From the NCBI GenBank assembly GCA_945897555.1, contig CAMDGF010000013.1, positions 1 to 45,459 on the forward strand: a stretch of 45,459 nucleotides of DNA. Reading direction: 5' to 3'. The notes beneath the pieces are model-generated. The model did no database searches, was not told the DNA's origin, and saw only the letters and a program-made list of their open reading frames with translations. This document shows positions 12 to 10,453 of the stretch, piece after piece. The translations under genes were made by a program, and so were the position numbers. Every line of letters starts with the position of its first letter. The first letter of the stretch is position 1. The DNA comes from Klebsiella pneumoniae. GTDB taxonomy: Bacteria; Pseudomonadota; Gammaproteobacteria; Burkholderiales; UBA3065.

Positions 12-737
12 CTAGCAGGCCAGCAGCCGCCCGTCCGCCAGCACCAGTCGCCGGCCGGCCTGCGCCGCCAAGCGCTCGTCATGGGTGACGATGACGAACG
101 CGGTAGGGTTCGCTGCGGCAAGTTCGAGCATAAGCCCGAACACCTGCCCTGCCGTGCCGCGGTCGAGGTTGCCGGTGGGCTCGTCGGCCAGCACGCAGCG
201 CGGCTGGGTGATGAGCGCCCTCACCACGGCGGCCCGCTGCCGCTCGCCACCCGAGAGTTCGCCCGGGCGATGCTCGAGGCGGGCAGCCAGCCCGACCCGC
301 CGCAGCCATTCGGCGGCCTCGGCCAGGGCAGCGTCGCGGTCCATACGCCGCAGCAGCAGCGGCATGGCGACGTTCTCCTGCGCGGTGAACTCGGGCAACA
401 GGTGGTGGAACTGGTAGACGAAACCGAGGTGGCGATTGCGCAGCGCGCAACGCTCCGCCTCCTCGAGGGCGGCGACATCACGACCACACCACAGCACACG
501 CCCGGCGCTCGGCGGCTCGAGACCGCCCAGCAGGTGCAGCAGGGTGCTCTTGCCGGCACCCGAGGCACCGACGATGGCGATGTGCTCGCCGGCGTCGATG
601 CGCACATCCACGCCCGAGAGGACCGCCGTCTCGGTGGCGCCCCGGCCGAAGTGCTTGGCCAGCCCTTCGCCAGCGACCACCGGCACAGACGGCTCGGCGA
701 CGCTCGACGGCGCTCCAGCCGCAGCCGTCTCACTCAT
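12..737 (-). CDS. lolD: Lipoprotein-releasing ABC transporter ATPase LolD
   Basis: This is the cytoplasmic ATPase of the Lol system, which extracts outer-membrane lipoproteins from the inner membrane and hands them to LolA. The 241-residue product has the full ABC cassette: Walker [10 protein letters not shown], signature [15 protein letters not shown], Walker [13 protein letters not shown] and the H-loop VTHD. The LSGGERQR...DEPTGNLD pattern is typical of the LolD/MacB/FtsE branch. I start at the ATG whose first bases overlap the lolC stop by 8 bp (ATGAGTGA), implying translational coupling. An in-frame extension into lolC would be meaningless sequence. The gene is complete, with its TAG stop 11 bases from the window edge, so whether a lolE follows cannot be seen. 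Confidence 0.95.
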
Positions 738-5504: not shown

Positions 5505-6683
5505 TCAGTCCCAGTTCAGCGCACCGCCCGTCTGATACTCGGTCACGCGCGTCTCGAAGAAATTCTTCTCTTTCTTGAGGTCGATCATCTCGCTCATCCA
5601 CGGGAACGGGTTCTCCGCGCCGGGGAAGAGCTCGTCGAGGCCGATCTGGCGGCAACGGCGATTGCAGATGAAGCGCAGGTATTCCTTGAACATCGGCGCA
5701 TTGAGACCAAGCACGCCGCGCGGCATGGTCGCCTCAGCGTAGGCGTATTCCAGATCCACCGCCTTCTTGAACAGCGCCACCAACTCTTGGCGGAACTCCG
5801 GCGTCCACAGGTGCGGATTCTCCAGCTTGATGGTGTTGACCAGGTCGACCCCAAAATTGCAGTGCATCGACTCGTCGCGCAGGATGTACTGGTACTGTTC
5901 AGCGGCGCCGGTCATCTTGTTCTGCCGGCCCAGCGCAAGGATCTGCACAAAGCCGACATAGAAGAAGATGCCCTCCATGATGCAGCTGAAGACGATCAAG
6001 CTCTTCAGCAACTTCTGATCGTTCTCGAGCGTGCCGGTGGTGAACTCGGGGTCGGTCAGCGTCTCGATGAAGGGGATGAGGAACTCGTCCTTGTCGCGGA
6101 TGCTCGCGACCTCCTGATACGCGTTGAAGATCTCGCCCTCATCCAGGCCGAGGCTCTCGACGATGTACTGGTAGGCGTGGGTGTGGATCGCCTCCTCGAA
6201 GGCCTGACGCAGCAGGAACTGGCGGCACTCCGGCGCAGTGATGTGGCGATAGGTGCCGAGCACGATGTTGTTGGCGGCCAGCGAGTCGGCGGTGACAAAG
6301 AAGCCGAGGTTGCGCTTGACGATGAGGCGCTCGTCCTCGGTGAGCCCATTCGGGTCTTTCCAGAGAGCGATGTCGCGCGACATCTGCACCTCTTGCGGCA
6401 TCCAGTGGTTGGCGCAGCCAGCCAGATACTTCTCCCACGCCCACTTGTACTTGAACGGCACCAACTGGTTGACATCGGTGCTGCCATTGATCACGCGCTT
6501 GTCGGCGGCGTTGACGCGACGCACCGCTCCCGCCTCGCCATCGGCGTGCAGGCCCACCGGCTCCGCGAGGTCGCCGCGCGTGGGCGTGGCGCCCGCGAAC
6601 GGGTCGGCGAAGGCACCCTGAGGCAGCCGTGGCTGCAGCGGCAGCTGCGTGTTGGCGGAGAGGTCGTCTTCAAAACTCAGCAT
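5505..6683 (-). CDS. nrdB: Ribonucleoside-diphosphate reductase class Ia, beta subunit
   Basis: This is the radical-generating small subunit of aerobic ribonucleotide reductase. The 392-residue product carries the di-iron and tyrosyl-radical residues: Asp133 (TADSL), Glu164 and His167 in EEAIHTHAY with the radical Tyr171, a glutamate in [10 protein letters not shown], and Glu/His in [10 protein letters not shown]. The C-terminal tail ending [10 protein letters not shown] is the segment that docks to NrdA. The start at 6683 (MLSFEDDL) has a strong upstream AGGAG. The gene lies 32 bp behind nrdA and is certainly co-transcribed with it under the NrdR-type operator. The first 60 or so residues form a poorly conserved extension before the core. 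Confidence 0.97.
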
Positions 6684-6715: not shown

Positions 6716-9580
<2,865 letters not shown>

Positions 9581-9643
9581 GTGCTCCCCCTTTGGATTGT
9601 GGCGCCCTCGCGCTGCGAAGGGCTAAAGGCAGGTTTCTCCAAA

Positions 9644-9659
9644 ACACTACATCTTGTGC
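9644..9659 (-). promoter_or_regulatory. NrdR box 1 upstream of nrdA
   Basis: The 16-mer here reads ACACTACATCTTGTGC on the plus strand and GCACAAGATGTAGTGT in nrdA's orientation. It matches the NrdR operator consensus acaCwAtATaTwgtgt at nearly every position. It lies 64 bp upstream of the nrdA ATG. NrdR is the ATP/dATP-sensing repressor of ribonucleotide reductase genes, and this site pairs with a second, weaker box 16 bp further upstream. Confidence 0.78.
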
Positions 9660-9675
9660 CAGAGATACCGCCCGG

Positions 9676-9691
9676 CCACTAATGCTAGGGG
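9676..9691 (-). promoter_or_regulatory. NrdR box 2, overlapping a putative -10
   Basis: This is a degenerate partner of box 1: CCCCTAGCATTAGTGG in nrdA's orientation keeps the conserved C-w-A and T-w-gtg halves (about 9 of 16 positions). Start-to-start spacing from box 1 is 32 bp, three helical turns, as expected for tandem NrdR sites. It overlaps a plausible -10, TAGCAT (9687-9682), which is 17 bp from TTGCAT (9710-9705). Confidence 0.6.
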
Positions 9692-9913
9692 TTGGGTGCT
9701 TGCCATGCAAGCGCTTTTTGCAGCCGCTGGCGGGGTCGGCTGTGCACCCCCTGTGGGCAGCTTGTGAAGTCCCTCACGCCGCCTGTGGTTGCACCGCAAC
9801 AACAGCCGCGGCACTCCCGCACAACATCGCAGCTGCAGCGCAACAAGCTTGGTGCACCAAGGATCAAGCGACCGATCTGCCGCCCTGTGGATGGTTCACC
9901 GACCGCGCGACGC
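9692..9913. other. Non-coding remainder of the ampD-nrdA intergenic region
   Basis: The spacer between the ampD stop and the nrdA start is 333 bp. Apart from the NrdR-type operator and putative promoter in its nrdA-proximal part, I see no gene, tRNA, terminator or clear repeat. Several TGTG-containing words occur between 9740 and 9900, but none is a convincing DnaA box. Confidence 0.5.
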
Positions 9914-10453
9914 TCAGGCCGAGTGCTTGATCGCGGTCAGTCGGCCCCAGTCGAAACAAGGCCCGGGGTCGCTCTTGCGGCCCGGCGCGATGTCGCTGTG
10001 CCCCGCAGCCGCACGCAGCGGCAGCGCCGCCACCAACTGCGCAGCGAGGTGTTCGAGCGCTGCGTACTGCGCTTCGGTGAAAGGCCGATCGTCGGTGCCC
10101 TCGAGTTCGATGCCCACCGAGAAGTCGTTGCATCGCTCGCGGCCCAGCCAGCTCGAAGCCCCGGCATGCCAAGCGCGCTCAAAGACCGATACGCACTGGG
10201 TGATGCCGCCGCAGCGCTCGACGACAAAGTGCGCCGAGACGCGCAGGCTCTCGATCTCGCGATAGAACGGGTGCTTGCCGGCATCGAGCCGGTTGCCGAA
10301 CAGGGCAAAGATGTCGCCGCTGCCGAACTCGCCCGGCGGCAGGCTGATGTTGTGGATGACCAGCAGCTCCGTCGCCACCGACGGCCGGGCGTCGCGGTTG
10401 GGTGAGGGCTCGTGGCGCACGCCCAGCAGCCAGCCCGCGCGGTCAAAGGCCAT
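9914..10453 (-). CDS. ampD: 1,6-anhydro-N-acetylmuramyl-L-alanine amidase AmpD
   Basis: This cytoplasmic zinc amidase cleaves the peptide from 1,6-anhydro-MurNAc-peptides during cell-wall recycling. By removing the inducer it keeps AmpR-controlled beta-lactamases low where these exist. The 179-residue product keeps the zinc ligands His34 (VIHNISLPPGEFG), His152 and Asp162 (GHSDIAPGRKSDPGP), plus the substrate-loop motif RERCNDFSVGIELEG. Length and both ends match E. coli AmpD. The PP0621-type gene lies 51 bp upstream on the same strand, so the two are probably one transcript. Confidence 0.95.
   Translation of the reverse strand: MAFDRAGWLLGVRHEPSPNRDARPSVATELLVIHNISLPPGEFGSGDIFALFGNRLDAGKHPFYREIESLRVSAHFVVERCGGITQCVSVFERAWHAGASSWLGRERCNDFSVGIELEGTDDRPFTEAQYAALEHLAAQLVAALPLRAAAGHSDIAPGRKSDPGPCFDWGRLTAIKHSA

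Follow-up and report, generated by a model that had tools for sequence, protein, structure and literature searches.

A predicted tandem NrdR operator at the candidate promoter of nrdAB, and the inequality of its two boxes among related bacteria

NrdR operators in described systems

Tandem NrdR boxes lying about 31-32 bp apart are a published arrangement (PMC2892513): the nrdAB, nrdHIEF and nrdDG promoters of Salmonella and E. coli are reported to carry two boxes at that distance, as does the locus analysed here. Binding is reported to be best when the boxes are separated by an integer number of helical turns, with linkers of 14-17 or 24-27 bp (PMC12051234), and the dATP/ATP tetramer of NrdR is described as kinking DNA at the AT bases of each box (PMC9110341). 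E. coli nrdAB is a less straightforward case: the pair that includes the -10-region box is reported to be bound poorly (Kd above 6000 nM), the working partner box is downstream, and box 2, with AG at its centre, still binds well (PMC12176259); at the present locus, in contrast, no downstream partner is seen. The nrdAB promoter of P. aeruginosa resembles the present one in having two NrdR boxes, with box1 overlapping the -10 element; mutation of its box2 is reported to resemble deletion of nrdR, and three RNR classes are placed under NrdR in that organism, whereas a single RNR was found here (PMC4409342). NrdR regulons have been predicted for 186 genomes in 20 proteobacterial taxonomic groups, with nrdR reported never to be autoregulated (PMC5343134); nothing essential separates the locus described below from those regulons, and its genome has no other site with 2 mismatches or fewer to the consensus, that is, no sign by this measure of further NrdR targets or of nrdR autoregulation. 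The tandem layout of the boxes, their phasing and the overlap with a -10 are thus all already on record, and the locus described below is of an ordinary type, with a small peculiarity that runs through the lineage.

The boxes, the candidate promoter and their genomic setting

The window (the whole stretch of DNA that was analysed, 45,459 nucleotides) comes from a 1.8-Mb draft genome in 52 contigs that is 98.5% complete. Its minus strand carries nrdA (6716-9580), which encodes a class I ribonucleotide reductase large subunit of 954 aa with an ATP-cone (NF005544, 1768.5 bits; PF02867, PF03477, PF00317), and nrdB, the small subunit gene (5505-6683; NF005550, 686.3 bits), whose likely ATG at 6683, placed from the reading frame, is 32 bp from the nrdA stop codon. 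Upstream, on the same strand, ampD ends at 9914, leaving a gap of 333 bp before nrdA. (A 772-codon open frame on the plus strand opposite nrdA, at 7364-9682, is probably a by-product of high GC.) Profile searches of the draft genome returned a single hit to the RNR barrel family PF02867, nrdA itself, and no match to the anaerobic NrdD family PF13597; no RNR operon besides nrdAB was detected in the draft, the absence of a second RNR being less than certain.

Is the regulator present? The original prediction had made this one of its checks, and an intact nrdR was found, encoding 147 aa with Zn-ribbon and ATP-cone domains both above their cut-offs; the frame beside it we take, by eye, to be ribD-like. 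Among PDB entries, 5 different NrdR sequences match the protein, the best at E 1.1e-47. If the numbering is assumed to be the same, the residues named for S. coelicolor NrdR (PMC9110341) are in place at D15, R17, arginines 26-29 and R37, with Q for R at position 12.

The boxes were scored against the NrdR consensus acaCWAtATaTWGtgt at 14 positions, positions 7 and 10 being left unscored. The nrdA-proximal, strong box (9644-9659; GCACAAGATGTAGTGT on the minus strand, ACACTACATCTTGTGC on the plus strand) matches 13 of the 14 and has the central AT; the nrdA-distal, weaker box (9676-9691; CCCCTAGCATTAGTGG on the minus strand, CCACTAATGCTAGGGG on the plus strand) matches 9 of 14, and its central step is CA instead of the AT that is usual, though not defining, in an NrdR operator. 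C4 and G13, the conserved GC pairs, are kept in both. Box starts are 32 bp apart, as are box centres, and the 16-bp linker (9660-9675) falls within the 14-17 bp range; the pair lies on the minus strand, 64-111 bp upstream of the nrdA start at 9580. That a near-consensus 16-mer has a weaker partner exactly 32 bp away at this place before nrdA had been read directly from the letters, and it stands.

A candidate -10 hexamer, TAGCAT (9682-9687, minus strand), occupies positions 5-10 of the distal, weaker box, and a candidate -35 hexamer, TTGCAT (9705-9710, minus strand), is 17 bp from it; the pair sits in the candidate promoter region of the RNR operon. The proposed overlap of the weaker box with TTGCAT-17-TAGCAT is present, then, but the promoter half of the proposal fares less well: the fit to consensus is poor (TTGCAT 3/6, TAGCAT 4/6), which counts against the operator reading, and a sigma-70 consensus scan of 9560-9930 found no promoter.

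Farther upstream, about 40-50 bp beyond the -35, the minus strand has the motif TGCCCACAG (9751-9759) with CACA words alongside. It is common to 4 of the 5 genus genomes described below, and its sequence resembles a diverged DnaA box; the pattern T[TG][AT]TNCACA has no site in a 6-kb stretch around dnaA in L121, so that there is no standard box with which to compare it. E. coli nrdA is reported to be under DnaA (PMC2892513).

The two boxes very probably constitute a tandem NrdR operator that is predicted to repress nrdAB. At high dATP, NrdR carrying dATP plus ATP (or ADP) would form a tetramer whose two Zn-ribbon pairs would contact the two boxes, which lie three helical turns from each other. 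Because the upstream box would coincide with the -10 region and its downstream partner with the predicted transcript at approximately +16 to +32, bound NrdR would exclude or block RNA polymerase and nrdAB would be repressed. The dATP-responsiveness of this scheme is carried over by analogy from the published NrdR mechanism, and we infer NrdR binding, promoter use, the start site and co-transcription of nrdAB. Control of nrdA and nrdB together is a reasonable expectation, since nrdB begins so soon after the nrdA stop. Regulation of nrdA by NrdR had entered the original prediction as an inference; the presence of nrdR and the conservation and phasing of the boxes now lend it support.

Conservation and phasing of the box pair

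How much of this might be chance? The core tandem CWAN4TWG-N22-CWAN4TWG matches once in the window and in 0 of 100 shuffles, and also once in the entire 1.8-Mb genome; a backward-read control pattern likewise matches once in the genome, so the rarity of the tandem core is not in itself decisive. The single 16-mer ACACWANATNTWGTGT has 9 genomic sites at up to 3 mismatches (40 for its backward control); the strong box is 1 mismatch from the full consensus, and the remaining 8 sites have 3 each. What sets the tandem apart from chance is that it lies within the 333 bp leading up to nrdA and that it is conserved.

Within the genus (5 genomes of the family, all of one genus, the window's included, and all with nrdA) both boxes, their 32-bp distance and a TTGC-TAGSAT promoter are kept in all 4 congeners, which answers favorably the original prediction's worry that the boxes might be poorly conserved in close relatives; TTGC, TAGSAT, the 17-bp promoter spacer and the 16-bp length of the linker are identical in 5/5. 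When the five upstream regions are aligned, invariant columns number 11/16 in the proximal box and 13/16 in the distal box (24/32 together) and 4/6 in the candidate -35; outside they number 3/16 in the linker, 2/13 between the -35 and the distal box, 5/51 in the leader and 8/150 upstream. The boxes are islands of conservation.

The phased pair extends beyond the genus. A related set of 112 nrdA upstream regions (the window's among them) was assembled from 80 named loci, the best 80 of 587 by NrdA similarity and nearly all named Betaproteobacteria, and 32 regions from family and order searches; its sequences are not independent. The best pair in each region was chosen by consensus score with the partner distance left free between 16 and 60 bp, and three single-base shuffles of each region served as the null. 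(A technical note: choosing the best pair by consensus score inflates counts at the scored positions.) The best pair is 30-32 bp apart in 102 of the 112 regions, as against 5% in shuffles; distances of 30, 31 and 32 bp account for 6, 61 and 35 regions, and joint pair scores run from 17 to 25, compared with 14 to 21 in shuffles. The ten regions whose best pair is off this distance are counted against the operator reading; among them, L018 has only 63 bp upstream, and several, L006 and L013 for example, still have a lower-scoring pair at 31-32 bp.

Anchoring on a strong box with a score of at least 12, which 97 of the 112 regions have, leads to the same spacing: both half-sites of a partner are found at -32, -31 and -30 from the strong box in 29, 32 and 5 of the 97 loci; every other offset between -70 and 70 has them in fewer than 3 loci.

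The window was also searched, 20-52 bp downstream of the strong box, for a third box like that of E. coli nrdAB; none was found, the best candidate matching 7/14. Across the related set, partners on the downstream side with a score of at least 9 are scattered, with at most 3 loci at any one offset (44 and 52), and paired half-sites form no peak downstream of the strong box. L006 and L013 have a further NrdR-like box, GCACAACATGTGGTGC (11/14), on the downstream side of the strong box and 52 bp, or about five turns, away from it; both score best with this box and have the 32-bp pair as well.

Two boxes, one box, or none

The possibility that demands most attention is that only the strong box is an NrdR site, the weaker "box" being simply a -10 region that happens to resemble a half-site. 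The distal match is indeed weak and lacks the central AT at which NrdR kinks DNA (PMC9110341), a weakness that also has to be counted against the tandem operator itself, and precedents exist: box 0 of E. coli nrdAB (PMC12176259), and the NrdR2 box of Salmonella nrdHIEF, which overlaps the -10 and was judged not to be involved (PMC2892513). Against this, the -10-overlapping NrdR1 box of Salmonella nrdAB (its first nucleotides overlap the -10) is reported to raise expression when mutated, if less than deletion of nrdR does (PMC2892513), two boxes are reported to be necessary for NrdR (PMC12051234), and the strong box in the window has no alternative partner in the 20-52 bp downstream of it. C4 and G13 are both present in 94 of 97 distinct distal boxes, at positions, it should be said, that were scored in choosing the pairs.

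A search free of any box criterion also bears on this point. The promoter pattern TTG-N3-N16/17-TANNNT occurs 20-45 bp before the strong box in 67 of the 97 anchored loci; in these promoter-only finds the -10 is preceded by C in 66/67 and followed by TNG in 65/67, whereas the same pattern elsewhere in the same loci has the C in 51 of 246 cases and the TNG in 9 of 246. The flanking C and TNG are the outer parts of the NrdR core, and a -10 element needs neither. From its sequence, then, the distal element seems not to be a -10 alone, and the single-box explanation is judged improbable.

Two further alternatives have far less to recommend them. The boxes might be a chance resemblance with no regulatory role, since a tandem core this loose can turn up about once per genome, as the backward control does; location, phasing and a conservation in congeners above that of the surrounding sequence make this a barely credible proposition. 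NrdR might, on the other hand, bind here and chiefly activate, or act in some way other than repression: a lone NrdR box at topA of P. aeruginosa has been linked to activation, and nrdJ expression in that species was lower in an nrdR mutant under one condition (PMC4409342). The reported rule for tandem RNR sites is nevertheless repression (PMC12176259, PMC12051234, PMC9110341, PMC2892513), and the boxes here lie over the candidate -10 and the early transcribed region, so that predominant activation has hardly any likelihood. The same P. aeruginosa work reports no significant NrdR-dependent change with hydroxyurea (PMC4409342), a point that is counted against the operator reading. The tandem operator is retained as by far the best explanation.

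A possible asymmetric operator in the lineage

The two boxes are not equivalent across the related set. Among 97 distinct pairs, TANNNT stands at positions 5-10 of 75 distal boxes and 2 proximal ones; the -10-like words at that register are TAGAAT (35), TATACT (20), TACAAT (10) and others, and TTG precedes them by 17 bp in 39 of the 75 pairs and by 16 bp in 25. Candidates of the form TTG-16..18-TANNNT have their -10 in the distal box in 65/97 pairs and in the proximal box in 16/97. The central AT, conversely, is found in 1 distal and 93 proximal boxes, while C4 and G13 are jointly kept in the proximal box as often as in the distal (94/97, these positions being part of the pair-choosing score).

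Why might the distal AT be missing? At register 5-10 the -10 consensus would call for A at position 9 where NrdR would call for T, and all 75 distal boxes that carry TANNNT at this register have A or C at position 9, a shortage of T that runs counter to the scoring bias. The central AT is missing from every one of these 75; it is also missing from 21 of the 22 distal boxes lacking TANNNT, which tells against the -10 as sole cause, and the -10 as cause of the missing AT is accordingly unproven. It is put forward tentatively, on the strength of these counts and at somewhat less than even likelihood, that the NrdR operator in this lineage is systematically asymmetric, the distal box meeting the demands of RNA polymerase and NrdR halfway and the proximal box staying canonical.

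A subgroup that includes Aquabacterium, Hydrogenophaga, Roseateles and others (L034, L036, L045, L046, L048, L054, L060, L061, L062, L064, L065, L074, L078, L080) has a distal box without TANNNT, its outer parts mostly palindromic and its centre GC-rich; in L034, L045 and L048 the word TTATAGT is found 9 bp upstream of the distal box.

Other orders of the class (the best 40 of 65 matching genomes; two of the stretches end at contig ends) offer a comparison. An accepted pair was found in 27 of the 40 regions and 13 were dropped, at a threshold score of 20 that 3 of 40 shuffled regions also reach. Here the central AT is present in the distal box of all 27 accepted pairs and in the proximal box of 14, and TTG-TANNNT candidates are concentrated at register 7 in the distal box (8) and register 9 in the proximal box (11): in these orders a candidate -10 either falls in a register compatible with AT or belongs to the proximal box. 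The Fisher values calculated are descriptive only, the sequences not being independent.

The asymmetry bears on how such operators are sought. The published box-pair expression (PMC12051234) was applied with core spacers of 20-23 (that is, 14-17 bp linkers), on either strand, over the 500 bases before the start of the tblastn match, a point that in some cases differs from the start codon; so limited, it found a pair in 47 of the 112 regions, missed 65, and matched 0 of the 5 genus genomes, the window included. No description of the box asymmetry was found in such open-access literature as could be consulted, in part, on NrdR.

For the organism, the predicted tandem operator puts the sole RNR operon detected, in a lineage not yet characterised, under a known repressor that senses dNTPs. 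If the asymmetry reading is true, the box that overlaps the polymerase site would be the weaker and tunable NrdR contact, and searches demanding two canonical boxes would miss many true operators: a patterned departure of one box from the consensus means that predictions built on two canonical boxes would undercount NrdR operators. The distal boxes of this lineage may also serve as a natural test case for the NrdR-DNA structure with its kink at the central AT.
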